This document shows positions 20,722 to 41,289 of a DNA stretch of 64,000 bases, in pieces. The translations under genes and the position numbers were made by a program. Position 1 is the stretch's first letter, and every line of letters starts with the position of its first letter. The notes beneath the pieces are model-generated. The model searched no databases, was not told the origin of the DNA, and saw only the letters and a list, made by a program, of their open reading frames with translations. The stretch covers positions 8,481,001-8,545,000 of the forward strand of contig NZ_WSRO01000002.1 of the NCBI RefSeq assembly GCF_009769735.1, in the 5' to 3' direction. The DNA is from Streptomyces sp. BA2 (GTDB taxonomy: Bacteria; Actinomycetota; Actinomycetes; Streptomycetales; Streptomycetaceae).

Positions 20722-20787
20722 GGGTTCTCCGATGGTGGCGAGGGGAGGGGAGGGGGAGGTGGATGCGGCGTGAGGGGTGCAGGAAGA

Positions 20788-20799
20788 GCAAGCGCTTTC
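20788..20799. promoter_or_regulatory. LacI-family operator candidate
   Basis: GAGCAAGCGCTTTCT contains the palindrome AAGCGCTT (20790-20797) with a central CG, typical of LacI-family sites. It lies about 70 bases upstream of the PL8 lyase start and 60 upstream of the divergent hydrolase start. Control of a polysaccharide-degrading gene by a LacI regulator fits. No LacI gene is in the window. Confidence 0.5.
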
Positions 20800-20857
20800 T
20801 AGCATGGGTCCAGGCCACTGCTCAATGGGTTGCGCACGGCGCTGTAGCGTCAGGGGC

Positions 20858-21538
20858 ATGAGCGATCACGCAGTGGTGGATGTGGGCGACGTACGCCTGG
20901 CCTATCGGACCTGGGGCGACTCGTACGGAGCGCCCGTCGTGCTGCTGCACGGGCTCGGCGATTCCTCGGCGACCTGGGAGCAGGTCGGGCAGGTGCTCGG
21001 GGAGGAATGGCGGGTGTACGCGCTGGATCTGCGCGGGCACGGCGAGAGCGACTGGCCGGACGAGTACTCGGTCGAGCTGATGAGGGACGACGTACTCGGC
21101 TTCCTCGACGAGCTCGACCTCGACCGCGTCGGCGTCGTGGGCCACTCCATGGGCGGGGTCGTGGCGTACCTCCTCGCCGAGGAGCACCCCGACCGCGTGG
21201 AGCGCCTCGTCCTGGAGGAGACGCCGCCGCCCTATCCGCGTGACTGGGTCGACGCCCAGCGGCCCGACGTCCTCGACTTCGACTGGCCCGTGTCCCCCGC
21301 GGTCCGCGCCCAGATCTTCGATCCCGATCCCGAGTGGGCCGAACGGCTCGGCGAGATCGTCGCACCGACCCTGATCGTGGCGGGCGGCCCGGACAGCAGC
21401 ATGCCGCAGGGGCGCATCCCCGACATGGCCACGGAGATCCCCGACTCCCGGCTGATCACGATCCCGGTCGGCCACTCGGTGCACGAGGCGAGCCCGCAGC
21501 AGTTCGCGGAGCAGGTCAGCGAGTTCTTCACCAGCTGA
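20858..21538 (+). CDS. Alpha/beta hydrolase
   Basis: A 226-residue cytoplasmic alpha/beta-hydrolase. Motifs are VVLLHGLGDSSATW (oxyanion hole), LRGHGESDWP, the nucleophile elbow VVGHSMGGVVAYL (Ser in GHSMG), the aspartate near LIVAGGPDSS, and the base histidine in IPVGHSVHE. The substrate is unknown; esterases, lactonases and haloperoxidase-like enzymes share this fold. The ATG at 20858 follows AGGGGC. It is divergent from the PL8 lyase and shares its intergenic region. A strong bidirectional hairpin at 21564-21600 ends it. Confidence 0.9.
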   Translation: MSDHAVVDVGDVRLAYRTWGDSYGAPVVLLHGLGDSSATWEQVGQVLGEEWRVYALDLRGHGESDWPDEYSVELMRDDVLGFLDELDLDRVGVVGHSMGGVVAYLLAEEHPDRVERLVLEETPPPYPRDWVDAQRPDVLDFDWPVSPAVRAQIFDPDPEWAERLGEIVAPTLIVAGGPDSSMPQGRIPDMATEIPDSRLITIPVGHSVHEASPQQFAEQVSEFFTS

Positions 21539-27198: not shown

Positions 27199-28401
27199 TC
27201 ACAGGAAGTGGAAGCCCGGCCTCGGGTGCATGAGGAAGTCGTGGTGCGAGATGTTCCACGCGTACGCGCCCGCCATCGCGAACACCACCCGGTCCCCGGC
27301 CCGCAGCCCCGTCACCGGAACCTGCCGGGCCAGGACGTCCTTCGGGGTGCACAACTGCCCCGCGAACGTCACCCGGTCCTGCAGCGCCTCGGACCGGGGC
27401 CAGGGGTGCGGCCACGGCTCGCGCGCCGGGAGCACGGTGCAGGGCTGGTCGTGGCCCTTGGCCGCGGGGGTGCGCAGATGGTGGGTGCCGCCGCGCACCA
27501 CCGCGAACTCCTCGCCGTGGCTCTGCTTCACGTCCAGGACCTCGGTGGCGTACCAGCCGCAGTACGTGGTGAGCGCCCGCCCCGGCTCGATACGCAGCGT
27601 CAGTTCCGGGTGCGCCGCACAGAGTTGGGCGAGGCCTTCTCCGTACGCGGCCCAGTCGAAGCGCGCGCCGGGGTCGGCGTAGTCCACGCTCATCCCGCCA
27701 CCGACGTTCACCTCCGCGAGGCGGATGCCGTGCCGCCGGGCCAGCGCCTGCGACCAGGTCACGACGGACTCGGCGATCGCGAGCTGCCGCGGTGCGTCGA
27801 GTCCGCTGGCCAAATGGGCGTGCACGCCCAGCAGGTGGAGTCCGCGGAGGCTGCCGTCGGTGAACGGCGAGACCACGGAATCCGCCTCGGCCGGGTCGAT
27901 GCCGAAGGGAGTGGGACGTCCGCCCATCGCGAGGGAACTGCCGGCCAGGGACTCGGCGTTGAGGTCGAGATTGAAGCGGAGCAGCACACCGACGCGGGTG
28001 TGCGGCACGACGCGGGCGGCGATCGAGGCCAGCATCCGCAGCTCGTAGGCGCTCTCGACATGGAAGCGCTCCACGCCGAGCTCAAGGGCTGCCGTGATCT
28101 CGTCCGGCGTCTTGCCGGGGCCGCCGAAGGCCAGCGGTCGTCCCGCGACCGCCTTGGCCACGTGGGCGAGTTCGCCGCCGGAGGAGACCTCGTAGCCGTC
28201 GACGTGCGGGCCGAGCGCGGTCAGGATCTCCGGCTCCGGATTGGCCTTGGCGGCGTAGTAGAGCTCGACCTGCCGGGGGAGCGCGGCGCGCACCGCGGCG
28301 GCATGGGCGTCGAGCGCCGACAGGTCGTACAGATAGGCGGGCAGTTCCTCCGCGGCGAGGCCGAGGGCACGGTCACGTACGGCGGGGGTGGGGAGGGTCA
28401 T
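27199..28401 (-). CDS. PLP-dependent decarboxylase, PvsE-like (siderophore precursor supply)
   Basis: A 400-residue fold-type III PLP enzyme of the Orn/DAP/Arg decarboxylase class. The PLP lysine is in VELYYAAKANPEPEIL. The histidine and glycine loops are LLGVHAHLASGLD, AEVNVGGGMSVDYADPGA and LRIEPGRALTTYCGW, and the cross-subunit cysteine motif is FAGQLCTPKDVLA. It is fifth in a run whose order matches pvsABCDE; Vibrio PvsE is also a decarboxylase of about 400 residues, thought to make the amine (ethanolamine from serine) of vibrioferrin. Here the substrate is inferred only. The ATG at 28401 overlaps the preceding synthetase stop by four bases (ATGA), so the two are translationally coupled. 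Confidence 0.9.
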   Translation of the reverse strand: MTLPTPAVRDRALGLAAEELPAYLYDLSALDAHAAAVRAALPRQVELYYAAKANPEPEILTALGPHVDGYEVSSGGELAHVAKAVAGRPLAFGGPGKTPDEITAALELGVERFHVESAYELRMLASIAARVVPHTRVGVLLRFNLDLNAESLAGSSLAMGGRPTPFGIDPAEADSVVSPFTDGSLRGLHLLGVHAHLASGLDAPRQLAIAESVVTWSQALARRHGIRLAEVNVGGGMSVDYADPGARFDWAAYGEGLAQLCAAHPELTLRIEPGRALTTYCGWYATEVLDVKQSHGEEFAVVRGGTHHLRTPAAKGHDQPCTVLPAREPWPHPWPRSEALQDRVTFAGQLCTPKDVLARQVPVTGLRAGDRVVFAMAGAYAWNISHHDFLMHPRPGFHFL

Positions 28402-30227
28402 TCGGCGGTGCTCCAAGGTGCGTCGGTGCGGGCGCCCAGGTCCCGTACGTGCTCGGCGAGCGGAAAGGGGGAGGTGAGACGGACATAGCCCGCGTCCCGG
28501 TCGGCCTTGCGCTCCCAGCGGGTGAGCAGATTGGCCTTGGCGGGCAGCGGCACTCCGGCGAGCAGGGCGCTGAGCCGGGGCGGGCAGCCGTGCGTGTCGG
28601 CGAACTCCTGCACGATGGCACGGACTTGTGACCAGAGCGCGGCCTCGGTGTGCGGATGGAGGTCGGCGAGGGCGGCGAGCAGCTCGGCGACGTGGTTCAC
28701 CAGGAGGCAGTAGACGACGCGGTCCCAGCCGCGCTGCGCGTCGTACGTCATCGGGCCCGCGACCTCGGGCGGGAGCGCCGCCAGGGTCTCCGCGTGACGC
28801 TCCGGGACCAGCTTGGTGCCCTCCAGGTCGCGGAAGAGCACCTGCGCGGGCATGCCGTCGTCGTCGACGCAGATCAGTACGTTCTGCAGATGCGGTTCGA
28901 GCACCAGGCCGTGGTCGAAGTACGCGGCGAGCACCGGCGGCAGCAGAAGCCGGAGATACCTCTGCCACCAGTCGAGCGCCCGCTGCGGGCCCGCGCCGTC
29001 GAGGAGGCGGGAGATGTGGCCGGGCCCCGTCGGGTACTCGTCCGCGACGGCCGCGGCGAGCAGCGGTGTCGTGCCGGGAAGGAGCCGTCCGGCCAGGCCT
29101 TCGCGGACGATGACGCCGAAGCCCTCCAGGAGGGCGAGGTCGGGGCGCCCGTCGGGGCCCGGGAGCGCAAGGCCGCGGTAGGCGGGCTCACGGAGCACGG
29201 CGTTGCCCGGGAAGCGGGCGGCCAGGTCGTCCAGCGTGCCTTCGAGTACGCGGGTGAGTGCGACCGCACCCGCCAGCTCGTAACTGGCGTTCTTGCGCAG
29301 GCAGTTGGTGATGCGGACGTTCAGGCTGAACTTCAGGAAGGTGTCACCGTCGTACAGCGTGCGCACGGAGGCGGTGGCCGCGAAGGGGGAGCCACCGGGC
29401 CCCAGGTCGATGACGTCGGCGCGGTCCAAGGCGGCACGCAGCCCCGGGTGCTCCCGCAGCAGGTCGTACTGCCAGGGGTGCACCGGAAGGAGCCGGTAGC
29501 CGTCCGGCACGGTGCCGAGGCGGTCGAGCGGGGCCGTGGCGCCCGGCCGCGCCGACTCCTCGGCGATGAGGTGGTCCCGTACGGCGAGGTGGCGCAGCGG
29601 GAAGGCGGCCGCGGTCTCGGGGGCGTACGCCGCCCAGTCGGCGAGGTCGCCGCCGCGGGCCTTGGGAGTGGGGTGGAAGCGGTGGCCGAACAGCAGGGAC
29701 TGCTCGGAGGCCAGGTAGTCCGCGAGCCACTTCGGGGCCGGGGCGGGGGTCGTCTCCGTGGAGGGAGCCGGACGGTCGGCGGCGATCGCGGCGCTGACGC
29801 CTTCGTGGCTGGAGGCGATCTGCTCCAGGAACTCCTCGTTGCTCACGCCCGTACGCAGCGAGAGCTCGGCATGGGTGTACTCGGCGAGGCGCGGCCAGTC
29901 GACCTCCACCCAGGCGCCGTCCCGCTGCTCGGTCACCGGGCCGGTGAAGCGGTGGGCGCCGAGGAGGGACGCGCGGCGCAGCGCGACGCGCAGGAGGACC
30001 CCGCGGCGCGGCAGCCGGAGCAGGAGGTCGCCGTCGACGACGGCGGTCTGGTGCTCGGGGCCCGAGACCTCGCGCAGCAGGCAGTTGAGGAGGGTGTGCG
30101 TCACCGCATGGTCGGCGCTGGGCAGACGGGTGGGCGCGGCCCCGGCGACGGGGGCGCCCGCGACGAGGGCGGCGGACTGGGCGGGCGCCCAGGATGGGGC
30201 GGCGAACGTGCCGGTCGGCAAGGACAT
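28398..30227 (-). CDS. NIS siderophore synthetase, IucA/IucC family (PvsD-like position)
   Basis: A 609-residue NRPS-independent siderophore synthetase. The IucA/IucC catalytic segments are YRLLPVHPWQYDLLREHPG, then ATASVRTLYDGDTFLKFSLN, VRITNCLRKNASYE, and the C-terminal LVLEPHLQNVLICVDDDG and VLFRDLEGTKLV. These enzymes adenylate a carboxylate (citrate, 2-oxoglutarate or a half-made siderophore) and condense it with an amine or alcohol. The start at 30227 shares its first base with the last base of the exporter stop (TGATG). The position between exporter and decarboxylase matches pvsD. Which carboxyl it activates cannot be read from sequence. Confidence 0.93.
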   Translation of the reverse strand: MSLPTGTFAAPSWAPAQSAALVAGAPVAGAAPTRLPSADHAVTHTLLNCLLREVSGPEHQTAVVDGDLLLRLPRRGVLLRVALRRASLLGAHRFTGPVTEQRDGAWVEVDWPRLAEYTHAELSLRTGVSNEEFLEQIASSHEGVSAAIAADRPAPSTETTPAPAPKWLADYLASEQSLLFGHRFHPTPKARGGDLADWAAYAPETAAAFPLRHLAVRDHLIAEESARPGATAPLDRLGTVPDGYRLLPVHPWQYDLLREHPGLRAALDRADVIDLGPGGSPFAATASVRTLYDGDTFLKFSLNVRITNCLRKNASYELAGAVALTRVLEGTLDDLAARFPGNAVLREPAYRGLALPGPDGRPDLALLEGFGVIVREGLAGRLLPGTTPLLAAAVADEYPTGPGHISRLLDGAGPQRALDWWQRYLRLLLPPVLAAYFDHGLVLEPHLQNVLICVDDDGMPAQVLFRDLEGTKLVPERHAETLAALPPEVAGPMTYDAQRGWDRVVYCLLVNHVAELLAALADLHPHTEAALWSQVRAIVQEFADTHGCPPRLSALLAGVPLPAKANLLTRWERKADRDAGYVRLTSPFPLAEHVRDLGARTDAPWSTAE

Positions 30228-31456
30228 CAACGGCTCCAGCGGATGCGGGGCGAGCGGCGGAACAAAGCGGGGAGAGTGGCGGCGGCCAGGGCTACCAGGG
30301 CGATCGCGGTGCCGGTCAGGAGGGGCGCGGGCAGGCCGATGAGGCTGTGGCCGGCCGCTGCCGCGAGACCGGCGGCGACCGCGCCGCCTTTGGAGACGAG
30401 CTCCAGCGTGCCGAACATCCCGCCGGGGGGCCTGCCGTGGGCGCACTCGGCGGCCAGCACGGACAGACTGACGAGGCCGAGGGTGAGGCCCGCGCCGAGC
30501 AGCAGTCGCACACCGGTGAAGGCGGCGAGCGAATCGGCGGCGCCGTGCCCGGCGAGACCGAGCGCGACCAGACCGAACCCGGCGGCGATCCCCTGCATGG
30601 GGCGGCGCTCGACGGCCCGGTGCACCCGCAGCGCGAACAGCAGGTAGCACAGGTGCGGCAGGGCGAACAGCGCGCCGGACACGACCGGCGAGACGCCGGG
30701 TATTCGCTCCTCGACCAGCGCGATCAGGTAGGGGAAGGAGATGACGGTGGAGAAGACGAAGGCGAACTCGAAGGCGTAGAGCGCCCTGAGAGGGGCGAGC
30801 GGTACGGCGGCCTCCGGCGCGTCGGCCACTTCGGTGCCCGGCGGTTTCGCCGTGGGCTCCGGCAGGGCGGCGAGCATCGCGGCCGCGGCCAGCGGCAGGA
30901 CGGCGAGCAGTGCGTACTGGCGGTGCGGCGAGATCCAGGGGGTCAGCGAGCCGACGACGATCGGCGCGAGGACCAGCGCTGCCCGCGCGGCACCCTGCAT
31001 CAAGGTGAGCGCCTTGGAGAGGCCCGAGCCGGTGAGCGCGGCGGCGAGGTAGCCGTTGGACGCGGCGAACGTGCCGCCCAGGACGCCTTGCAGCACCAGG
31101 GCCGTGACGAACGCGCCGAGGGACTCGGCCCACCCGGCGAGCAAGAAGGAGAGAGCGAGGCCGAGTTGAGCCCGCAGAAGCAGCCGTTTTCGGCCGAAGC
31201 GGTCGGCGGCCCGGCCCCACAGGGGCGCGCCGAGCGCGCCGAAGACCGTCGGGACGACGTACAGGAGCCCGGCCCAGCGGGCGCTCGCGTCTCCCAACTC
31301 GGGGAGGATCGCGGTGAGATACGGGGGTAGCCCGAGGGCGGCGAAGGACGCGACGAAGTAGCAGGCGGCGACGGCGTGCACCTGGCGCCGGCCGAATCCT
31401 GTGCCCACGGTCGAACCCTCCGTAAGCGCGTGCGCCGATGATGCGGTGGCCATCAT
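30227..31456 (-). CDS. MFS transporter, probable siderophore exporter (PvsC-like)
   Basis: A 409-residue major-facilitator protein with about 12 membrane helices. The loop 2-3 signature reads GAPLWGRAADRFGRKRLLLR. The second half begins LYAFEFAFVFSTVISFPYL. It lies between the two NIS synthetase genes, exactly where pvsC lies in the vibrioferrin operon; MFS pumps in NIS operons export the finished siderophore. It has start-stop overlaps on both sides: ATGA at 31453-31456 with the upstream synthetase and TGATG at 30225-30229 with the downstream one. Start is MMATAS at 31456, or 31453. Confidence 0.92.
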   Translation of the reverse strand: MMATASSAHALTEGSTVGTGFGRRQVHAVAACYFVASFAALGLPPYLTAILPELGDASARWAGLLYVVPTVFGALGAPLWGRAADRFGRKRLLLRAQLGLALSFLLAGWAESLGAFVTALVLQGVLGGTFAASNGYLAAALTGSGLSKALTLMQGAARAALVLAPIVVGSLTPWISPHRQYALLAVLPLAAAAMLAALPEPTAKPPGTEVADAPEAAVPLAPLRALYAFEFAFVFSTVISFPYLIALVEERIPGVSPVVSGALFALPHLCYLLFALRVHRAVERRPMQGIAAGFGLVALGLAGHGAADSLAAFTGVRLLLGAGLTLGLVSLSVLAAECAHGRPPGGMFGTLELVSKGGAVAAGLAAAAGHSLIGLPAPLLTGTAIALVALAAATLPALFRRSPRIRWSR

Positions 31457-33621
31457 GAAGTCCCCGTCTGCCGCAGGTAGTTGGGTCCTGTCGTGTAGTG
31501 CTTGTTGATGTCGGCGGCCCCTGAGCGCTCCTTGGAGAGCAGGGTGCCCGCGGTGACCATCGCCTTGACGGGCAGCTCCGGCGCGTCAAGGACGTGCGCC
31601 CGCAGGAGCGCGCCCGGCTCGCCGGGACCCGGGCCGAGCCGCTCGACGGCCTCGGCGAGCCGCTCGCGCACGAGCCGGAGCAGCCGCTCCAGCGGGGCGT
31701 GGCCGTGCCGGGCGAGCCCGAACGCGTAGGACCCGGCGCAGAGGTGGAGGGTGATGGTGGTGAACACGTCGAGCACGGGCCGATCTCCGTCGACGAAGAT
31801 CCTGGGATCGTCGAACTCGCCCGCCTCCGGGGCCGGTTGCCCCATGACGTCGTGCAGCCGGGCGAGGTTGACGCGAGGCCCGTCGTTGTCCTTGAACAGC
31901 AGCCGCAGCCGGGTGGGGCCGGCCGCGTCACTTCCCGCGGGGTGGTCCATCACCAGCGAGATGTTCTGCTGATGCGACTCCAGGGCGATCCCGTAGGCGA
32001 AGAGGGTCGTCTGCCAGTCGAAGAGGAGGGCGAGCGTGGCGTCCAGGAGGGCGAGGGGGTCGCCGCCGTAGAAGCGGTCGGCGAGGTGGTCGATCAGCAG
32101 CCGGTCGCCGCCGGGTGCCGGGCACAGGAGCGCCGCCATCGGCACGACCGCGGCGCCGTCGAGGCCGGCGGGGTAACGGCGCAGGAGCACGGCGAGGAGT
32201 TCATGTCCGGCGTGGGCGAAGCGGGTCTCGTCCGCGTGCAGGACGACACCTTTGAACCGGGGTTCGCGGTCGATGACGGCTTCGACGAGCCGCTGGCCCG
32301 CGGCGCCGTCGGCGAGGGTGCCCGGCTTGATGGTGCGCCGGTTGCGCAGGCCCAGTGTGGCGGTGGCGAGCGGCAGTTTGAGGTGCTGCGTGGCGTCGGA
32401 GGTGAGGGCGACGGTACGCATCGAGAGGGTCGGTACGACGTCGGGTCCGGGACGGTCGACGAGCTGGGCCCGCCCGTCGAGCCCGGCTGCCCGCAGCGCG
32501 TCCCGCAGGGGTCCTTCCGCGGTCAAGGGGTGTACGGGGAGGAGGAGATGGGTCCCTTCGAGCTCGGGCATGCCGGCTGCGCCGGGTGACAGCCAGGAGG
32601 TGGTGCCACCGCCGATGGTGAGGGCCTCGCGGGGGAGGGCGAGCTGTCGCAGCGCGAAGGCTGGATGGAACTCGGGTGCGTACGCACGCAGTTGGGCGAC
32701 GGAGAGCCCTGAGCGGCCGCGGGAGGTGGGATACACGGGGTGATCGGCCCGGGCGGCGAGCGTGTCGTAACCGAGCCCGCCCGCGAGTCCGGTCCAGTTG
32801 GCGGGATCCGCGCCGTACCGCTCGACGAGCAGGCTCTCCACCTCACCCTTCGTCTCGTCATGCAGCCGCAGGGCATCGAGCGCCTGCTCACACTCCACGG
32901 CGAACGCCTCGAACCCGCCACGGTCGACGGGCTCGGCGAGATCACGCAGGGCGCCCAGAATGCTGCCCGCGTCAGCGAGTTCGGCCCCATCGGACTCGCG
33001 CCGGAGCAAGGGGAGCCGGGCGGCGTACGTGGCTTGATAGCCGTCCGGGTGGACGGCCATCAGCAGAGCGTCGGTGCGAGGCGCGCACCCGGCGGGGCAC
33101 GAACTCGGCGTGCTTCCGGCGCGGCTGTCGCTGTCTCCGGGTGGGCCAGCGACGACGACCTCGGCTGGGTCAGCGACGACGACCCCGGCTTCCACGGAGC
33201 CACGGGGTTCCGCGCCGGGCGGGACGGTGGCCTGGACGTCGCGGCCGACCGCCCCCGAGTCATGCCGACCGCTCACGCCGACGCCGGGTCGGCGGGCGGA
33301 ACCACTGGAGGCCGCAGCTTCTTCTACGGAGGCATGGGGCACATCGTCCGGCGGGATCGCCCCCGGCAGGCCGCATCCACGGCCCCCGTCGGCACCGACC
33401 CGCGGCGCGGGCACCCTAGTGGTGGCTTCGTCCTCCGCGGAGTGTTCCCGCACCGCCGCCACCGGCAGCCTCAGCCACAAGCCGTCCGGTTGCCGCATCG
33501 CCGTGCTTCGGGTGCGCCACCCCGCCACGTCCTCGCGCAGGAGTGCGCTGAGTACGCGTAACAGGAACTCGGCCTCGACGTCGGCCCCGGTCGAAGGTGC
33601 CCCGCCAGGCGGACGCGTCAC
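31453..33621 (-). CDS. NIS siderophore synthetase, IucA/IucC family, with internal low-complexity insertion (PvsB-like position)
   Basis: A 722-residue NIS synthetase, about 110-120 residues longer than usual. Family motifs are LLLPVHPLTAEGPLRDALRA, then VPTLSMRTVALTSDATQHLK, LATATLGLRNRRTIKPGTL, IALESHQQNISLVMDHP and LLFKDNDGPRVNLARL. Residues about 58-182 (33076-33450) are a Gly/Pro/Ala/Val-rich stretch without family similarity and contain two 8-residue tandem units (AGVVVADP/AEVVVAGP). The rest of the fold appears complete, so the enzyme may still be active. GTG 33621 overlaps the ATP-grasp stop by four bases (GTGA). Its place second in the run matches pvsB. Confidence 0.9.
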   Translation of the reverse strand: MTRPPGGAPSTGADVEAEFLLRVLSALLREDVAGWRTRSTAMRQPDGLWLRLPVAAVREHSAEDEATTRVPAPRVGADGGRGCGLPGAIPPDDVPHASVEEAAASSGSARRPGVGVSGRHDSGAVGRDVQATVPPGAEPRGSVEAGVVVADPAEVVVAGPPGDSDSRAGSTPSSCPAGCAPRTDALLMAVHPDGYQATYAARLPLLRRESDGAELADAGSILGALRDLAEPVDRGGFEAFAVECEQALDALRLHDETKGEVESLLVERYGADPANWTGLAGGLGYDTLAARADHPVYPTSRGRSGLSVAQLRAYAPEFHPAFALRQLALPREALTIGGGTTSWLSPGAAGMPELEGTHLLLPVHPLTAEGPLRDALRAAGLDGRAQLVDRPGPDVVPTLSMRTVALTSDATQHLKLPLATATLGLRNRRTIKPGTLADGAAGQRLVEAVIDREPRFKGVVLHADETRFAHAGHELLAVLLRRYPAGLDGAAVVPMAALLCPAPGGDRLLIDHLADRFYGGDPLALLDATLALLFDWQTTLFAYGIALESHQQNISLVMDHPAGSDAAGPTRLRLLFKDNDGPRVNLARLHDVMGQPAPEAGEFDDPRIFVDGDRPVLDVFTTITLHLCAGSYAFGLARHGHAPLERLLRLVRERLAEAVERLGPGPGEPGALLRAHVLDAPELPVKAMVTAGTLLSKERSGAADINKHYTTGPNYLRQTGTS

Positions 33622-34859
33622 GGCGTGATCTCCCAGTGATGCTCGGCGAGGAACTCCGCCACGGCTCGGTCCACCTCTGACTGTTCGGTGCCGGTGGCGC
33701 GGACCACCCCGAGGAAGTCCCGGTTCGTGCCGTGGAGTTCGCGGCGTTCGCCGACTTCGCGTAGTGGGCGGTATGTGAGATGTACCCCGCCCATCCTCAC
33801 TTCGGTCGCGCCCGGCGCAGCCGTCAGCGTTCCGGCGCTCTGCGCGCACGGATAGTCGAGCAGTGCCCGGCCGTCCGTCCGCGCGCCCAGGTCCGAAGGG
33901 AGCGGCTCGCCCAGATGCGTACGGAGAATGAGCTCGAAGAGCGGTATGTCCAGGAGTTGAGCGAGGAGCAGATCGCACTGGTCGCCGATGGCGCGGTAGT
34001 TGACCTCGATGAGCCGTGCCCGCCCCTCCGACACCACGAATTCCGTGTGGCACGCCCCGAATCCCACCCCCAGCACGTCCAGTTGGGTCAGGACCTGAGC
34101 CACCACCGCCTCCGGATGCGCCGGGACGAACGTCAGCCGCTCCTCTATGAAGTACGGCGGCGGCGACACCTCCGTACGGAAGCCGCCCAGTACGTGCCTG
34201 ACGTGGCCGTCGCCGAGCGTCTCCAGGGTGCACAACTCCCCGGCCAGGTACTCCTCGACGACCAGTGCCGCCCCCGGACGCCGCGCCTGTATCTCCGCGC
34301 ACCGCCGCACCAGCTGCTCCGGCCCCTCGACCAGCACCACGTCCTCGCTCGCCACCCCCTCCCGCGGCTTGACCACGCAAGGGAACGGCACGTCGAGAGC
34401 CGTGAGTTCGGCCGGATCCCGGTCGGTGGGCAGCTCCGCCGACCACACCGCGTCAACGCCCGCAGCAGCGAGATGGCGCCGCATCTGCGCCTTGTCCTTG
34501 GTGCGCAGCGCCGCCCGCCAGTCCTTGCCGGGCAGCCCGAAGTACTCGGCGGCCAGCGCGGCCTGGGTCTGCAGATGGTCACTGTTGGTGAAGATCGCGC
34601 CGGGGGAGTGGTGGGCGGAGATCCGGCTGATGACGGCACGGAAATCGAGTACGTCGCACTCCAGGATCTCCAGAGACTCCAGAGGCTCCAGAGGCTCCAG
34701 AGACCCCAGGGATTCGAGGCTCTCCTGGACCAGGCCGTCCCGGTGGGCGTCCGGCTGATCGGTGAGGAGGGTGACGTCGAGGCCGAGCCTGTGCGCGGCG
34801 GGCAGAAAGCCTTCGGTGACCGAGTCGGTGGGGTTGCGGGCAAGGACGTACAGCCGCAT
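33618..34859 (-). CDS. ATP-grasp ligase, PvsA-like
   Basis: A 413-residue ATP-grasp protein. It begins MRLYVLARNPTDSVTEGFLP. The ATP-binding lysine motif is VPFPCVVKPREGVASEDVVL, followed by LVVEEYLAGELCTLETLGDG, and the metal-binding RLIEVNYRAIGDQCDLLLAQ (Glu and Asn). Such enzymes make amide bonds through acyl phosphates; PvsA, the first gene of the vibrioferrin operon, is also ATP-grasp. Residues 47-67 are an unusual Leu-Glu-rich repeat (ESLESLGSLEPLEPL and on), coded by near-identical 9-base units. ATG 34859 was chosen because the frame upstream enters the hairpin region. The substrate is inferred only by analogy. Confidence 0.88.
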   Translation of the reverse strand: MRLYVLARNPTDSVTEGFLPAAHRLGLDVTLLTDQPDAHRDGLVQESLESLGSLEPLEPLESLEILECDVLDFRAVISRISAHHSPGAIFTNSDHLQTQAALAAEYFGLPGKDWRAALRTKDKAQMRRHLAAAGVDAVWSAELPTDRDPAELTALDVPFPCVVKPREGVASEDVVLVEGPEQLVRRCAEIQARRPGAALVVEEYLAGELCTLETLGDGHVRHVLGGFRTEVSPPPYFIEERLTFVPAHPEAVVAQVLTQLDVLGVGFGACHTEFVVSEGRARLIEVNYRAIGDQCDLLLAQLLDIPLFELILRTHLGEPLPSDLGARTDGRALLDYPCAQSAGTLTAAPGATEVRMGGVHLTYRPLREVGERRELHGTNRDFLGVVRATGTEQSEVDRAVAEFLAEHHWEITP

Positions 34860-34963: not shown

Positions 34964-35968
34964 CTACTTGGCCGGGAGTTCGACGTCCGTCGCCTTGGCC
35001 ACGTCTTCGAGGACGTGCTCCGCGGCCTGGACGCCGATGCCGGACATCCACGTCTCGTCAGGGACCGTGAAGACCTTCTTCTTCTTGACGGCCGTCAGGT
35101 CCTTCCAGACCGGGTTGGACGTGACGTCCTTCTGCTGGGTCTTGTCGGGAGCGTCGGCGACCGTCACGAAGATCAGGTCGGCGTCGGCCTTGTCGATCTG
35201 CTCGGGGCTGACGTCCAGCATCGTCTTCTCGGGGTCGGACGAGTTCTGCGAGGCCGGGCGCGTGAGGCCGATGTCGTCGAGGACGATGCCGCTGTAGGCG
35301 GACTTCTGGTAGAGCCGGGTCGGGCCCGCGACGAAGCGGACGACCGAGGCCGACGGCATCTTCCCGTCGTACTTCGCCTTGATGGATTCACCCAGGGCCT
35401 TGGCGCGCGTCTCGTAGCTCTTGAGCGCCGTGTCGGCCTGGCTCTCCATGCCGAGCGCCTTGGCGTGGACCTTCAGGTTCTCCTTCCAGGGAGAACCCGT
35501 GGTCTCGGTGAAGACGGTCGGCGCGATGCCCTTGAGCTTGTCGTAGACCTTCTCGTGCCGGACCTTGGAGGACAGGATCAGATCGGGCTTGAGGGAGGCG
35601 ATCAGCTCCAGGTTCGGCTCCTCCATCGGGCCGACGTCCTTCACACCGCCGATCTTGTCCTTGAGGTACGAGGGGAAGCCGCCCGCGGTCTTGAAGTGCG
35701 GGGAGACCGCGCCGACCGGCTTGACGCCGAGCAGCGTGACGTCGTCGAGCTCTCCGGTGTCGAGGACGACGACCTTCTGCGGCCGTGCGGGGATCTCGGT
35801 GCTGCCCATGGCGTGCTTGATGGTGCGCGGGAAACCGGTGTCGGCGGCGGAGTCGCCCTTGCCCTTGTCGTCCCCGTCGGAGTCACCGCACGCGGCGAGC
35901 GCTCCGGTTCCGAGGACGACGGTGAGCAGGACGGCACTGAGCCTGCGTGGAAGGGTGCTGGTGGTCAT
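34964..35968 (-). CDS. Iron-siderophore ABC transporter substrate-binding lipoprotein
   Basis: A 334-residue FepB/FhuD-type binding protein. The lipoprotein signal peptide ends in the lipobox LAAC, with Cys27 as the lipidated residue, followed by an Asp/Gly/Lys-rich linker. The periplasmic-binding fold (residues about 45-330) contains PQKVVVLDTGELDDVTLLGV, LKPDLILSSKVRHEKVYDKL and the C-terminal VFTVPDETWMSGIGVQAAEH. It should capture the ferric siderophore at the membrane surface for the two FecCD permeases and ATPase upstream. A gap of 81 bases separates it from the ATPase gene, with no iron box, so it is likely on the same transcript. Confidence 0.93.
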   Translation of the reverse strand: MTTSTLPRRLSAVLLTVVLGTGALAACGDSDGDDKGKGDSAADTGFPRTIKHAMGSTEIPARPQKVVVLDTGELDDVTLLGVKPVGAVSPHFKTAGGFPSYLKDKIGGVKDVGPMEEPNLELIASLKPDLILSSKVRHEKVYDKLKGIAPTVFTETTGSPWKENLKVHAKALGMESQADTALKSYETRAKALGESIKAKYDGKMPSASVVRFVAGPTRLYQKSAYSGIVLDDIGLTRPASQNSSDPEKTMLDVSPEQIDKADADLIFVTVADAPDKTQQKDVTSNPVWKDLTAVKKKKVFTVPDETWMSGIGVQAAEHVLEDVAKATDVELPAK

Positions 35969-36049: not shown

Positions 36050-36904
36050 TCAGGCGGGGACGGCCGGATCGTCCGAGGTGCGGCGGGCGGTTCTGCCCTT
36101 GGGTACGACCAGTGGGGTGCCGGTCTCCGGGTCGGGGATGACCCGGCAGTTGACGTCGAACACGTCCTTGACGAGTTCCGCGTCGAGTACGTCGGCGGGC
36201 GCCCCGGCCGCGGCGAGCTGCCCGTCCTTGAGGACGACCAGGTGGTCCGCGTACCGGGCGGCCTGCCCGAGGTCGTGCAGCACCATCACCACGGTGCGGT
36301 CCGCCTCGGTGTGCAGATCGGCGACCAGGTCGAGTACGTCGAGCTGGTGCCGCAGGTCCAGGAAGGTGGTCGGCTCGTCGAGGAGCAGCAGTTCGGTGTC
36401 CTGGGCGAGCGCGAGGGCGATCCAGGCGCGCTGGCGCTGGCCGCCGGAGAGCCGGTCCACGCTCCGCTCGCGCAGCTCCGTGGTGCCGGTACGCTCCAAC
36501 GCCTCGTCCACCGCGGCCTGGTCGGCCTTGGACCAGGGGCTGAGGAAGGTCTGGTGGGGGTAGCGGCCCAGGCGTACGAGGGCTTCGACCGTGATGGCCT
36601 CGGGTGTCACCGGCTGCTGCGGCAGGAGGCCCATCCGCCGGGCGAGCGCACGCGCGGACATCCGGTGGATGTCGGCACCGTCCAGGGCGACACTGCCGCC
36701 GGCGGGCGCGAGCAGCCGCGTGAGGCCGCGCAGGAGGGTGGACTTGCCGCAGGCGTTCGGGCCGACGATGGCGGTGACGGCGCCGCCGGGCAGCGTCATG
36801 TCGAGGCCGCCGACCACGACCTTGTCGCCGTACCGCAAGTCAAGCCCGTGCGTGGAGAGTTGGTTGGCGGGGGACGCCGGCGCGGACGTCTGTGTGGGGC
36901 TCAT
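36050..36904 (-). CDS. Ferric-siderophore ABC transporter ATPase (FecE/FhuC type)
   Basis: A 284-residue ATPase. Walker A is GPNACGKSTLLRGL, the Q-loop region is MGLLPQQPVTPEAITVEALV with GRYPHQTFLSPWS, the signature is DRLSGGQRQRAWIALALAQD, Walker B is LLLLDEPTTFLDLRHQLDVL, and the switch histidine is VMVLHDLGQAARYA. These are standard for iron-siderophore importers. ATG 36904 overlaps the second permease stop (ATGA at 36901-36904), so the genes are coupled. It powers uptake by the two FecCD subunits. The C-terminal GTPLVVPKGRTARR tail is hydrophilic. Confidence 0.94.
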   Translation of the reverse strand: MSPTQTSAPASPANQLSTHGLDLRYGDKVVVGGLDMTLPGGAVTAIVGPNACGKSTLLRGLTRLLAPAGGSVALDGADIHRMSARALARRMGLLPQQPVTPEAITVEALVRLGRYPHQTFLSPWSKADQAAVDEALERTGTTELRERSVDRLSGGQRQRAWIALALAQDTELLLLDEPTTFLDLRHQLDVLDLVADLHTEADRTVVMVLHDLGQAARYADHLVVLKDGQLAAAGAPADVLDAELVKDVFDVNCRVIPDPETGTPLVVPKGRTARRTSDDPAVPA

Positions 36905-37956
36905 GCGGCACTCCGGTTGACGGGCCTGCTCTGTCGGATCATCAGCACAAGGAGCCAGGGAGCACCGAGCGTCGCGGTGACCACCCCGACGGGGAGCCCG
37001 GACACCGGCAGCAGATGCTGCACCACCAGGTCGGACGCGAGGAGCAGTACCGCGCCAGCGAGGCCGGTGAGCGCCAGCGTCCCCGGGGTCGGCGGGCCCG
37101 CGACGAACCGCACCAGATGCGGTACGGCGAGCGCCACGAACGCGACGGGCCCGGTGAGCGCGGCGGCGAGCGAGGCCAACACGATGGCGGTGAGGAGGAG
37201 TTGGAGCCGGGCGGCAGACGGGTTCAGGCCGAGCCCGCCCGCCGACTCGTCGCCCAGGTCCAGTACGGCGAGCCGCCGCTGGAGCGCGAACGCGGCCACC
37301 AGCGCGAGCATCACCGCACCTCCGGCGGCCCACACCTCGGTCCACGTCCGCCCGTAGAGCGATCCGGTGGTCCACTGCAGCGCGGAGCTCGCGAGTTCGG
37401 CGGGGAAGCGTACGACCATGAGGTTCACGGCGGCGGCGAGGCCCGCCTGGACGGCGAGCCCGACGAGCACGAGCCGGGTGACGGTGAGCCCCGAGCGCCA
37501 GCCGAACACTCCGAGCAGCAGCGCCGCCAGGAGACCGCCGCCCAGCGCTGCCAGGGGGATCAGTGTCTGGGACGCCCCCGTGGCGAGCAGTACGACGGCT
37601 CCGAAGGAGGCGCCGCCCGTCACGCCCATCACGTCCGGCGAGGCCAGTGGATTGCGGAACACCCGCTGCAACATCGATCCCGCGACCCCGAGCCCGACCC
37701 CGGCGATGACCGCGGCGACCACCCGGGGTGCCCGGAAGTCCTGCACCACGAGCACGTCCGCCGGGTCACCGAGCCCGACGAGGCCGCGCAGCGCGACGGA
37801 CGCCGACATCGGCATCTGGCCCTTCGTCAGGGCGAGTGTGAAGAGGGTGAAGAGGATGGCGAGGCCGCAGCAGGCGAGCAGCGCGAGGCGACGAGCGTGC
37901 CGGGCGCGCGTCCCGGTGGGGGCGGCCTTGGTCTCCCGTACGGCGAAGACGGTCAT
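36901..37956 (-). CDS. FecCD-family iron-siderophore permease (second subunit)
   Basis: A 351-residue inner-membrane permease of the BtuC/FecCD family with about ten helices. Typical segments are QDFRAPRVVAAVIAGVGLGV and AGSMLQRVFRNPLASPDVMG near the N-terminus, then GPVAFVALAVPHLVRFV and LPVGVVTATLGAPWLLVLM near the C-terminus, which form the family core and ATPase contact. It should pair with the permease at 37953-38972. ATGA overlaps join it to both neighbours (37953-37956 and 36901-36904). The N-terminal 25 residues are basic and cytoplasmic. Confidence 0.93.
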   Translation of the reverse strand: MTVFAVRETKAAPTGTRARHARRLALLACCGLAILFTLFTLALTKGQMPMSASVALRGLVGLGDPADVLVVQDFRAPRVVAAVIAGVGLGVAGSMLQRVFRNPLASPDVMGVTGGASFGAVVLLATGASQTLIPLAALGGGLLAALLLGVFGWRSGLTVTRLVLVGLAVQAGLAAAVNLMVVRFPAELASSALQWTTGSLYGRTWTEVWAAGGAVMLALVAAFALQRRLAVLDLGDESAGGLGLNPSAARLQLLLTAIVLASLAAALTGPVAFVALAVPHLVRFVAGPPTPGTLALTGLAGAVLLLASDLVVQHLLPVSGLPVGVVTATLGAPWLLVLMIRQSRPVNRSAA

Positions 37957-38972
37957 CGCGCCACCTTCCGGGCCAGGACCGCCAGCAGCGGTGCGCCGAG
38001 GAAGGCGCTGACGATGCCGACCTCCAGCTCGGAGGGGCGCACGACGACGCGGCCGAGGACGTCGGCGGCCAGGAGCAGCAGCGGCCCGGCGATCAGACAG
38101 CCCGGCACGAGCAGCCGGTGGTCGGAGCCGACCGCGAGCCGTACGAGATGCGGGGCCGCGAGCCCGATGAACGCGACGGGCCCGGCGACCGCCACCGCCG
38201 AGCCCGCAAGGAGGACGACCGCGATGCCCCCGGCCACGCGGATCCTGGTCACCGGCACACCGAGCGCCTGCGCCGAATCGTCGCCAAGGGCGAGGGCGTT
38301 GAGCGCGGGCGAGATCGCGAGGGCGAGGACAAGGCCGATGACGAGCGTGGGAAGGACCGGCCAGAGCACGTCGAGCGTGCGCCCGGACAGCGAGCCTGCC
38401 AGCCAGAAGCGGGCCTCGTCCAGCGTCCGTTCGCTGGCCAGCATCACGGCCTGGGTCCAGGAAAGGAGCACCATCTGGAGCACGACGCCGCCGAGCGCGA
38501 GCCGCACCGGGTCGAGGTCACCCGCGTGCCGGGCCAGCATCTGGGCGAGCATTCCGGCCGCCGCGGCACCGAAGAAGGCGAACCACAAGTACTCGACGGG
38601 CCGCGTGAGATGCAGGGCGTAGATGGCGACGACGACCGCGAATCCGGCGCCCGCGTTGATGCCGAGCGTGGTCGGCGATGCGAGCGGGTTGCGTGTGATG
38701 CCCTGGGCGACGGCACCGGCCACGCCGAGGGCGGCGCCCACGGCGAGCGCGACGACGGTGCGCGGAAGCCGCAGTCCGGTGACCACGATGGCGTCCCGCC
38801 CGTGGGCGTCGCCGAAGAGCGCCTCGGCCACTGTGGAGAGCGGCACCGGGCGCGACCCCAGGGCCAGGCTCAGCATGGCGCACAGCACCAACGCGGCGAA
38901 TCCGGCGAAGAGTAGAGGGATCCGCCGTGCGGAGAGGCTGCCTGGTGGGGCGGCCCGATCGATCTTGGACAC
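37953..38972 (-). CDS. FecCD-family iron-siderophore permease (first gene of iron operon)
   Basis: A 339-residue FecCD permease with about ten membrane helices. It contains VTGLRLPRTVVALAVGAALG, then AVAQGITRNPLASPTTLGIN, GPVAFIGLAAPHLVRLAVGS and the terminal ELEVGIVSAFLGAPLLAVLA. It should form the transmembrane channel with its neighbour. GTG 38972 is preferred: the frame extends to a TTG at 39011, but that would put the iron box inside the gene. With GTG 38972 the box (38984-39002) ends 11 bases upstream, so the mRNA leader would be very short; no Shine-Dalgarno is visible. This is the promoter-proximal gene of the nine-gene iron operon. Confidence 0.9.
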   Translation of the reverse strand: MSKIDRAAPPGSLSARRIPLLFAGFAALVLCAMLSLALGSRPVPLSTVAEALFGDAHGRDAIVVTGLRLPRTVVALAVGAALGVAGAVAQGITRNPLASPTTLGINAGAGFAVVVAIYALHLTRPVEYLWFAFFGAAAAGMLAQMLARHAGDLDPVRLALGGVVLQMVLLSWTQAVMLASERTLDEARFWLAGSLSGRTLDVLWPVLPTLVIGLVLALAISPALNALALGDDSAQALGVPVTRIRVAGGIAVVLLAGSAVAVAGPVAFIGLAAPHLVRLAVGSDHRLLVPGCLIAGPLLLLAADVLGRVVVRPSELEVGIVSAFLGAPLLAVLARKVAR

Positions 38973-38983
38973 AGGGTGAGAGT

Positions 38984-39002
38984 TTAGGTTAGGTATACCT
39001 AA
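38984..39002. promoter_or_regulatory. Iron box (DtxR/DmdR operator) of the transport-siderophore operon
   Basis: TTAGGTTAGGTATACCTAA matches the actinobacterial iron-box consensus TTAGGTTAGGCTAACCTAA at 17 of 19 positions. It lies 11 bases upstream of the first permease start. DmdR1/IdeR bound to Fe(II) should repress the operon when iron is plentiful. Confidence 0.93.
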
Positions 39003-39088
39003 GGCTGTCAACTGCCTGTGAGGGGCGGATTACTCGCGATAGTCGGGCCAGGTGGCGCGCCGCGTCGATGCGGCAAGTTGAAGAAAAA

Positions 39089-39107
39089 TAAGGTAAGCCT
39101 TACTTAG
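39089..39107. promoter_or_regulatory. Second iron box, upstream of the FhuF-like gene
   Basis: TAAGGTAAGCCTTACTTAG matches the iron-box consensus at 13 of 19 positions, with a clear GTAAG-C-CTTAC core. It lies 66 bases before the GTG start of the divergent 2Fe-2S protein gene, so both arms of the locus carry iron control. Confidence 0.8.
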
Positions 39108-39172
39108 CTCGCCGGTTGACGACTCCGCCGGTGAGCGCCCGATGGACCTGCCCTGCCTTCCAAGGAGTACGA

Positions 39173-40129
39173 GTGCCGCTGACCGTGGCCCCGGACCTGG
39201 CGCCGAACGCCACCGCCGTGAGCCCCGCCGCTCTGCTCGCCGCGACCTGCCGACGGCTCGCCGCGCACTGCGAGACACTCGCCGTCACGGTCGCGCAACC
39301 CGGCTCGACCGCGGGTCAGGGGTGGGTCACCGGCGCCGAACTGACGTCGGATCAGGGTGCTCTGGAAGCCTTCGTCGCGGCGGAAGCGGCACGCATCCGC
39401 GCCGGTCACGACCACACCCCGCGCCCGGACGTAGCCGCGTCCCGCGCCCTGCACGGCTACCTCTGGTCGGTCTCTCTGCTGATGAGCGGCGCCTGGTACC
39501 TGGAGCGGCGCGTGCCCCGGATCCACCCGGAGGACGTGCGCGTCCACCTGGAGACCGGCGCCTTCGAGGTCGTCCCCGGCTCGTTCGCCTGCCTCCCGGA
39601 CGATCCGGCGGCGGGGCTCCCCGGAGTGCAGGTCCTCGCCGACGAGGAGTCGCTCCGCATCGAACTCCGTGCCGCGGTCGTCGCGCACATGCGGCCGCTG
39701 CTCACGGCGATCGGGCCCCGACTGCGGCGCGGACAGCGGGCGTTGTGGGGCATGGCCGGGGACGATCTCATCTCCGGGATCTGGTACCTGGGACGCATGC
39801 TCGGCCAGGAGGACGAGGCGCTGCGAGCGGTGGACGCGCTGCTCCCGGGCCCTGTCGAGCCCTTCCCCGGCGGCGCGGCCTTCCGCCATCTGACGACCCG
39901 TGACGGCGAACGGCACCCGACCCGCACCCGTCTCGGCTGCTGCCTCTACTACACGATCCGCGCCCCCGAGGCGTGCGGCACCTGCCCGCGCGTCTGCGAC
40001 GCGGAACGACTGCGGAGGCTGGAGGCGGACATCACCTCGGCCGACGTGCCGTCGGAAGCCGTGCGGCGAACTGACGCACCGTCGGAAACCGTGCCGCGTA
40101 CAGACGTGCCGTCGGAAGCCGTGCGGTGA
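39173..40129 (+). CDS. FhuF-like (2Fe-2S) protein, probable ferric-siderophore reductase
   Basis: A 318-residue protein of the FhuF/ferric iron reductase type. The C-terminal 2Fe-2S motif LGCCLYYTIRAPEACGTCPR supplies Cys256, 257, 268 and 271, with an extra Cys275. The preceding FRHLTTRDGERHPTRTR is basic. In FhuF-type proteins the cluster donates an electron to release Fe(II) from imported siderophores. GTG 39173 is preceded by AAGGAG at good spacing, which decides the start. The last 28 residues are three copies of a 10-residue unit like TDVPSEAVRR, coded by 30-base tandem repeats; this tail is not part of the known fold. It is divergent from the uptake operon and has its own iron box. Confidence 0.87.
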   Translation: MPLTVAPDLAPNATAVSPAALLAATCRRLAAHCETLAVTVAQPGSTAGQGWVTGAELTSDQGALEAFVAAEAARIRAGHDHTPRPDVAASRALHGYLWSVSLLMSGAWYLERRVPRIHPEDVRVHLETGAFEVVPGSFACLPDDPAAGLPGVQVLADEESLRIELRAAVVAHMRPLLTAIGPRLRRGQRALWGMAGDDLISGIWYLGRMLGQEDEALRAVDALLPGPVEPFPGGAAFRHLTTRDGERHPTRTRLGCCLYYTIRAPEACGTCPRVCDAERLRRLEADITSADVPSEAVRRTDAPSETVPRTDVPSEAVR

Positions 40130-40179: not shown

Positions 40180-41289
40180 ATGCCCTTCCAGGTTCCCGTC
40201 ATCGACATCACGCCGTACGTCGACGACGACGGCCCGGCGGCCGAACGCGCCCGCGTGGCACGGGAGATGGATGAAGCCTGCGCCCGCGTCGGCTTCATCC
40301 AGATCCTCGGCCACGGCATTCCCGACGAGACGGTGGACGGCCTGACCGCCGCCGTGGACGGCTTCTTCGGCCTTCCCCTGGAGACGAGGAAGAGCTACCG
40401 CGTCACCGGCGCGAACCGCGGCTACAGCCCGCCCAAGAGCGAATCCCTCAGCCTGAGCCTCGGCGTGGAGTCCGCCGGGCGCATGAACGACTTCTTCGAG
40501 GCGTTCAACATCGGCACCGAAGCCCGCTCGTTCCCCGGACTCGACCTGTCCGAGGACGATTACGGGCTCAACATCTGGCCCACGCAGGTCGACGGCTTCG
40601 AACCGGACGTGCTGAGCTACTTCGCCGAGGCCGGCCGCGTGGCACGCACCCTGACCCGTATCTTCGCGGACGCCCTCGGGGAGCGGTCCGACTTCTTCGA
40701 GTCGCTGACCGACCACTCCATCGACGTACTGCGCATGAACAACTACGCGCTCCCGGAAGGCACCGTCACCCTCGACGGCGACCTGACGGGGATGGGCGAG
40801 CACACCGACTTCGGCCTCGTCACCGTGTTGTGGGCGGACCAGGTCGCCGGTCTTCAGGTGCTCGGCACCGACGGGGCCTGGCACGACGTCACGCCCGTCG
40901 ACGGCGCACTCCTGGTCAACCTCGGCGATCTCACCGCCCGGCTCACCAACGACCGCTGGATGTCCACCCTGCACCGCGTCAAGCCGCCGATCGTGGACGG
41001 CGGCATCGTCCGGCGCCGGTCCGCCGCCTACTTCCACGACGGCAACGTCGACGCGGTGATCTCCACACTGCCGAGCCACCTCGACGCCTCCGACGAACTC
41101 GCCTACGAACCGATCCTCGTGCGCGACCACATCAAGGCGAAGCTCGCGGGCTCCCGGCAGGGCAAGTCGAACGCGGCGGCCGTCCGGGAGGCGGCGCGGG
41201 TGCGAGCGGCCGCGGGGCGGGAGGCCGCGGGGCGGGGGGCCGGGAAGGGCGGCCCCGCGGCCGAATCCGGCTCGGTCACGCCTGGTTGA
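40180..41289 (+). CDS. Isopenicillin-N-synthase-like 2-oxoglutarate/Fe(II) oxygenase
   Basis: A 369-residue non-heme iron oxygenase. The N-terminal DIOX_N region is FQVPVIDITPYVDDDG and CARVGFIQILGHGIPDETVD. The iron ligands are His and Asp in MGEHTDFGLVTVLWADQVAG and the distal His in MSTLHRVKPP, with the RRRSAAYFHDG arginine-serine pair for 2-oxoglutarate. The last 45 residues are an Ala/Gly/Arg-rich tail. It starts 50 bases after the FhuF-like gene, so it may be co-transcribed and iron-responsive. It could hydroxylate a siderophore or precursor, but substrates in this family are very diverse, so this is only context-based. Its end overlaps the convergent Clp_N gene by 14 bases. Confidence 0.87.
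   Translation: MPFQVPVIDITPYVDDDGPAAERARVAREMDEACARVGFIQILGHGIPDETVDGLTAAVDGFFGLPLETRKSYRVTGANRGYSPPKSESLSLSLGVESAGRMNDFFEAFNIGTEARSFPGLDLSEDDYGLNIWPTQVDGFEPDVLSYFAEAGRVARTLTRIFADALGERSDFFESLTDHSIDVLRMNNYALPEGTVTLDGDLTGMGEHTDFGLVTVLWADQVAGLQVLGTDGAWHDVTPVDGALLVNLGDLTARLTNDRWMSTLHRVKPPIVDGGIVRRRSAAYFHDGNVDAVISTLPSHLDASDELAYEPILVRDHIKAKLAGSRQGKSNAAAVREAARVRAAAGREAAGRGAGKGGPAAESGSVTPG

Follow-up and report, generated by a model that had tools for sequence, protein, structure and literature searches.

We analyzed a 64-kb stretch of DNA from Streptomyces sp. BA2 (GCF_009769735.1, NZ_WSRO01000002.1; "the window", to whose coordinates all positions below refer), in which five consecutive genes on the minus strand resemble the vibrioferrin operon pvsABCDE. 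In reading direction, these are a pvsA homologue for an ATP-grasp ligase of 413 amino acids (33618..34859; assigned by BLASTP and an AlphaFold model), a pvsB homologue for a nonribosomal peptide synthetase-independent siderophore (NIS) synthetase of 722 amino acids (31453..33621), a pvsC homologue for an exporter of the major facilitator superfamily (MFS; 30227..31456), a pvsD homologue for a second NIS synthetase (28398..30227, its start taken at ATG 30227), and a pvsE homologue for a fold-type III pyridoxal phosphate decarboxylase (27199..28401; recognized by identity to proteins in the PvsE position). The encoded proteins are referred to as A to E below. By clade, B would be of the 2-oxoglutarate type, while clade and residues suggest that D is of the citrate and L-serine ester type. 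A preliminary description made from the sequence alone had already reported this gene order, and all five frames are indeed open and overlapping between 27199 and 34859, with the four stop-start junctions GTGA (33621-33618), ATGA (31456-31453), TGATG (30229-30225), and ATGA (28401-28398) found as described. Its family calls were likewise borne out by Pfam and NCBIfam for all five proteins: A is an ATP-grasp protein, B and D combine an IucA/IucC domain with a FhuF-like C-terminal domain, C belongs to the MFS, and E to the Orn/DAP/Arg decarboxylases.

For comparison, five colinear reference operons were taken from named plasmid records of Vibrio fortis, Vibrio sp. THAF190c, Pantoea soli (where the annotation of the first gene reads PvsA), Cupriavidus necator H16, and Rhodococcus oxybenzonivorans. 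In 5/5 of these operons, the best BLASTP match of each window protein was its positional counterpart, with identities of 34-50% for A, 35-43% for B, 37-48% for C, 31-50% for D, and 43-58% for E. Thus, the comparison with Vibrio proposed in the preliminary description gave one-to-one matches to PvsA-E for both Vibrio operons, and A is no unrelated ATP-grasp protein, a possibility that had been reckoned with. The weakest PvsB reached 211 bits with B versus 107 bits for the best protein from outside the Pvs group (SbnC), and MFS proteins in the PvsC position reached 154-271 bits with C versus at most 57 bits for the four MFS proteins of other siderophore clusters that matched. For E, the drop from the weakest PvsE (311 bits) to the best SbnH-type protein (278 bits) is modest. 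A chance gene order can be excluded, because orthology holds gene by gene and the order is conserved in actinomycete loci. The plasmid copies of the pvs operon in the two Vibrio strains, whose proteins are 31-43% identical to those of the window, have the identical five-gene order and, as in the window, a FecE/FecCD/binding-protein importer nearby. But this importer is divergent from the operon in Vibrio and co-directional and upstream in the window. Furthermore, each Vibrio operon is adjoined by two TonB-dependent receptors; none turned up among the scanned window frames, in a scan not aimed at TonB receptors.

The phylogeny of NIS synthetases that the preliminary description had called for was calculated from 44 rows, after columns filled in less than 30% of the rows had been dropped; some of its actinomycete rows (e.g., Nono_D and Embl_B) are longest open frames with extra N-terminal residues. 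B falls within the PvsB clade (100/100, 9 rows), which is sister to AcsA plus SbnC (100/99), and D falls within a clade of PvsD and AcsD (98/98, 11 rows). The actinobacterial B and D rows each form a clade of their own. A grouping with aerobactin- or desferrioxamine-type enzymes, which would have turned the shared order into a coincidence, was not observed: both proteins stand apart from IucA, IucC, and DesD-like enzymes, and such an identity was rejected. It is instead the synthetases encoded at 3.645 and 6.81 Mb of the same genome that group with aerobactin/desferrioxamine-like enzymes. A second NIS cluster of the genome (G000:C2:6807000-6825000; L014 5255-11594) encodes two NIS synthetases together with a diaminobutyrate-type transaminase; one synthetase is placed close to the PCC 7002/IucA group and the other close to IucC and the 3.645 Mb enzyme.

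The borders first given for the operon (27199-34859) are too narrow, since fecC, at about 38972, is probably where the same-strand unit begins. Directly upstream of pvsA and on the same strand lie genes for a ferric-siderophore binding protein with a Peripla_BP_2 domain (34964..35968; Pfam), a FecE-type ATP-binding cassette ATPase (36050..36904; domain scan), and two FecCD-family permeases, one at 36901..37956 (PF01032, E 2.9e-75) and the other, fecC, at 37953..38972, with which the unit begins (PF01032, E 6e-90 when the longer frame 37953-39011 is scanned). We placed the putative fecC start at GTG 38972, because the start of the longer frame overlaps an iron-box-like site. The nearest NCBIfam model for the binding protein is Fe(3+) dicitrate, with a score below the model's cut-off, and the protein is 45% identical to the binding protein adjoining the Rhodococcus pvs operon. 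A hairpin between its gene and pvsA was dropped as evidence, as 42/200 shuffled sequences fold as well (z -0.84).

The iron-box-like site, TTAGGTATACCTAACCTAA, is located just upstream of fecC (38984..39002, minus strand) and was found by matching to what we take to be the iron-box consensus. It is the sole match in the 64 kb at three or fewer mismatches, and no match occurred in 100 shuffles. A second site, with two mismatches to the degenerate consensus (39089..39107, plus strand), precedes a divergent gene for a putative FhuF-type siderophore-iron reductase (39116..40129, plus strand). This assignment is based on a weak FhuF 2Fe-2S match that passes the Pfam cut-off for FhuF_C (E 6.2e-05) and stays below the cut-off of TIGR03951 (E 1.6e-04). 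FhuF-type homologues adjoin the pvs operon in many relatives. Among relatives with at least 350 bases upstream, a site with three or fewer mismatches was present upstream of the operon start in 68/74 loci, compared to 0/74 control stretches of equal length inside pvsA. The adjacent gene for a 2-oxoglutarate-Fe(II) oxygenase (40180-41289, plus strand) was dropped as a part of the system, as only L053 has a match among 87 loci.

Who catalyzes which step was deduced from conserved residues and a structural model. Vibrioferrin is composed of citrate, ethanolamine, alanine, and 2-oxoglutarate (PMC5577590). AcsD is a proven citrate/L-serine ester synthetase, in which E442 acts as base and in recognition, while R501 and K563 face the serine carboxylate (PMC3323832). 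In our alignment, the columns of AcsD E442, H444, R501, and K563 correspond to E444, H446, R503, and K564 of D; in the 82 rows formed by the window plus 81 relatives, E, H, and R are always conserved (82/82) and K is conserved in 81/82, with one gap. A TNC.R..(A/S).YEL-like stretch is common to the D, PvsD, and AcsD rows and missing from the SbnE and IucA rows. B has a two-residue-longer LG.(R/K)N.R stretch, which also occurs in the PvsB rows and is absent from the AcsA and SbnC rows. Synthetases of the AcsA/SbnC class use 2-oxoglutarate. The AlphaFold model of A (mean predicted local distance difference test score 92.8) has its best PDB matches in L-amino-acid ligases, 3vot and then BacD/YwfE (3vmm). 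Because D keeps the AcsD residues and A folds like L-amino-acid ligases, alignment and model support the view that D is the ester-forming citrate enzyme and A an amino-acid ligase.

In the proposed pathway, D would convert citrate to the adenylate and then to the ester with L-serine, E would decarboxylate the seryl part to ethanolamine, A would couple L-alanine to that amine, and B would add 2-oxoglutarate to the alanine nitrogen. After ring closure, this would yield vibrioferrin or a close analogue, which is the likely product. C would export the siderophore, the binding protein together with FecCDE would re-import its ferric form, and the FhuF-type protein would release iron from the imported complex. 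The unit fecC-fecD-fecE-binding protein-pvsA-B-C-D-E would be co-transcribed and iron-repressed, with the fhuF-like gene divergent; the candidate repressor is presumably a DtxR-family (DmdR/IdeR) regulator. Taken together, we regard it as highly probable that the locus represents a complete actinobacterial pvs-type system for making, exporting, and importing a siderophore along this pathway, probably under iron repression. This places a complete vibrioferrin-type system in Gram-positive soil bacteria.

A number of observations weigh against this interpretation. Vibrioferrin and achromobactin cannot be told apart by D, which scores 248 bits with both the weakest PvsD (Pantoea) and the Sodalis AcsD, and AcsD is nested among the proteobacterial PvsD proteins (92/80, 93/89). 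In the decarboxylase tree (17 rows), PvsE is not separated from AcsE and SbnH; the best BLAST matches of E are proteins in the PvsE position. The control for the iron-box survey was lenient, its stretches being GC-rich coding sequence of pvsA. The step assignment also runs against that of PMC5577590, which proposes ester formation by PvsA and amide formation by PvsB or PvsD, and itself calls these functions untested. Finally, the reactivity of AcsD with L-2,3-diaminopropionate is about double that with L-serine (PMC3323832), so that the acceptor is not fixed by the conserved residues of D, and the column of AcsD H444 contains H in the actinobacterial B rows and N in the proteobacterial PvsB rows. 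This last difference in the active site of B, the mere 31-49% identity of the window proteins to the proteobacterial ones, and the separate actinobacterial clades of B and D would also fit an operon of the same type that makes a new mixed carboxylate, with another amino acid introduced by A, whose amino-acid choice (alanine in the proposed pathway) is not readable from the sequence, or another acceptor used by D. But the recognition residues of D are unchanged, and a search for diaminopropionate genes revealed none in the unit; the genome's best SbnB-type match is distant (33% identical, 6.94 Mb), and the search also gave a 25% match at 7.42 Mb. We regard a new product as possible but doubtful. 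An SbnG-type citrate synthase had no match in the genome, in a search run without a positive control.

An achromobactin- or staphyloferrin-B-type cluster that merely resembles pvs would contain the same enzyme families, and D is close to AcsD: in the acs clusters of Sodalis and Thalassospira, AcsD belongs to the clade of D and keeps the same residues. The gene names in these two clusters are those we presume from gene order. But the acs clusters encode three NIS synthetases and no ATP-grasp protein in the stretch examined, and the sbn clusters, whose SbnH-type decarboxylases are 39-45% identical to E, encode three NIS synthetases plus SbnA/SbnB and likewise no ATP-grasp protein in the examined stretch, whereas the window has two synthetases, both placed with Pvs proteins, and an ATP-grasp gene. 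An achromobactin identity was rejected, as B lies outside the AcsA/SbnC clade and neither of the two synthetases groups with AcsC. Staphyloferrin B was rejected as well: tree, NCBIfam, and genome search revealed neither an SbnC/E/F set nor a linked SbnB, and the SbnC and SbnF models gave 27-45 bits for B and D at cut-offs of 700-900. This explanation is thus scarcely credible. That this Streptomyces recently acquired its pvs operon from a Gram-negative donor might be suspected, since the operon type is best known from Gram-negative bacteria, but is very improbable: in a tree of A+D+E (quick method, LG+G4, branch support by SH-like approximate likelihood ratio test [SH-aLRT] only, with long-branch warnings), 79 actinomycete rows including the window are split from the three proteobacterial rows with an SH-aLRT of 100, and the GC content of the operon region (0.70-0.74) is like that of the remaining window (0.69-0.73). 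Decay of the operon, or a cryptic state in this strain, is unlikely, too. It could be suspected from a low-complexity linker inside pvsB (33073-33459, minus strand, between LWLRLPV and DALLM), which has 129 residues compared to 26 at the same position in L042, the nearest relative of the window, and about 12-15 in L053; but the frames are open, and the catalytic residues of D and the iron-box-like sites are kept. A short repeat, LESLGSLEPLEPLESLEILE, inside pvsA (34662-34721, minus strand) is modeled with low confidence and absent from eight other aligned rows.

The preliminary description had implied that such operons are rare outside Gram-negative bacteria. This view cannot be upheld, since at E 1e-30 pvsA was detected in 47/199 Streptomyces genomes (an even sample of a larger group, with strain BA2 itself included), and a cluster of this kind, avs, has already been named in S. 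avermitilis. We furthermore inspected 80 actinomycete loci, which are the best of at least 555 relatives in named genomes, scanned with an alignment that had the Rhodococcus PvsA as its first row, and do not constitute a census. The order A-B-C-D-E is present in 41 and A-B-D-E in 33 of them, and five others are truncated at the end of a contig (L039, L075, L094, L095, and L104). In Micromonospora tarensis (L101), the pvsA homologue stands alone, and the roughly 9 kb downstream of it revealed no further pvs gene. The genera represented include Amycolatopsis, Arthrobacter, Sinomonas, Lentzea, Pseudonocardia, Micromonospora, Kitasatospora, Kribbella, and Actinomadura. In S. avermitilis, avsABCD (SAVERM7320-7323) was named a vibrioferrin-like siderophore cluster (PMC9394381); its description lists four genes, three "siderophore synthetase components" and a decarboxylase, and no exporter, which would fit A-B-D-E, and from this description we infer that avs and A-B-D-E of the window are of the same type. 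A siderophore region of S. tunisialbus is listed with vibrioferrin at 18% (PMC7385001), and the announcement of Streptomyces sp. GQFP, which is locus L054 among the 80, cites the vibrioferrin operon paper (PMC9022529). The excerpts of PMC9394381, PMC7385001, PMC9022529, PMC11219617, PMC12093950, and PMC5812596 contain no report of vibrioferrin isolated from an actinomycete, although one may be in print. Many actinomycetes are flagged whose product lacks an assignment in these excerpts. The pvs-type operon is common in actinomycetes and of an already known kind; the newer point is the joint absence of transporters in relatives.

Exporter and importer were scored in 72 loci with enough upstream sequence, plasmid references included. 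Both pvsC and Fec/binding-protein-like genes were present in 33 loci and neither in 32, while six loci had pvsC only (L008, L009, L027, L047, L065, and L097) and one the importer only (L034). For the 51 Streptomycetaceae loci, these numbers were 27, 22, 2, and 0, respectively. The window is of the full form and its nearest relative, L042, of the stripped form. A Pfam scan of ten frames flanking the L042 operon named no transporter, six of them being without any match. One simple deletion cannot remove both blocks, because pvsA and pvsB separate the exporter from the importer. On the A+D+E tree, the exporter label requires 19 changes (shuffled mean 27), at least 14 of them forced by starred branches. 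The Streptomycetaceae yielded 10 independent pairs with a difference in pvsC; the importer differs in the same direction in 8-9 of these and in the opposite direction in none (sign test, p 0.004-0.008). All 73 rows gave 14 pairs, with 8-13 (mean 11.8) in the same direction and again none in the opposite one. Simple spread of one stripped allele does not account for this pattern, since the individual trees calculated for A, B, D, and E (61 rows each) need 12-14 changes. Loss is favored over repeated gain, because the identity of pvsC tracks that of pvsD (Spearman 0.87, 35 rows).

PvsC and the cognate binding protein were not found elsewhere in the stripped genomes searched. The search for PvsC covered 17/36 stripped rows of the A+D+E tree, chosen by hand, namely 15 draft genomes of unstated completeness and two plasmids, for which the plasmid record alone was searched. 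No PvsC match at E 1e-20 was obtained in any of them, compared to 3/3 full genomes. The PvsC match in the genome of L053 contains one TAG. Similarly, the cognate binding protein was absent from 15/15 stripped genomes (eight with a 37-48% match, seven with none at E 1e-40) and present in 3/3 full genomes at 71-90% identity. In L054, which was counted as full, the importer is reduced to short FecC- and FecD-like pieces (7136-7840), and FecE has no match; pvsC and the gene for the binding protein are retained. This looks like importer loss under way. The synthesis genes of the stripped operons are intact and under purifying selection: the best tblastn stretches for A, B, D, and E were free of stops in all 26 stripped rows, compared to 3/34 full rows with a stop in that of D, and the ratio of nonsynonymous to synonymous substitution rates was 0.16-0.45 in six stripped and 0.17-0.41 in six full pairs, all hand-picked from the tree. 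We tentatively propose that two working forms of the operon exist, and that the stripped form, which keeps the synthesis genes and often the FhuF-type gene, has arisen many times by shedding both transporters together. If so, stripped forms would either rely on unrelated carriers for moving their product or have a use for it other than secretion and re-uptake. The repeated joint absence raises the testable question of what moves a siderophore without its own transporters.

Two further observations concern genes outside the system. A decarboxylase 54% identical to the pvsE product is encoded on a Streptomyces uncialis plasmid (L021 8854-10023), where it adjoins a GntR regulator and has no siderophore gene among its annotated neighbors. 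In the window itself, the gene at 18280-20859 on the minus strand encodes a member of polysaccharide lyase family 8, in which all three Pfam domains are present.

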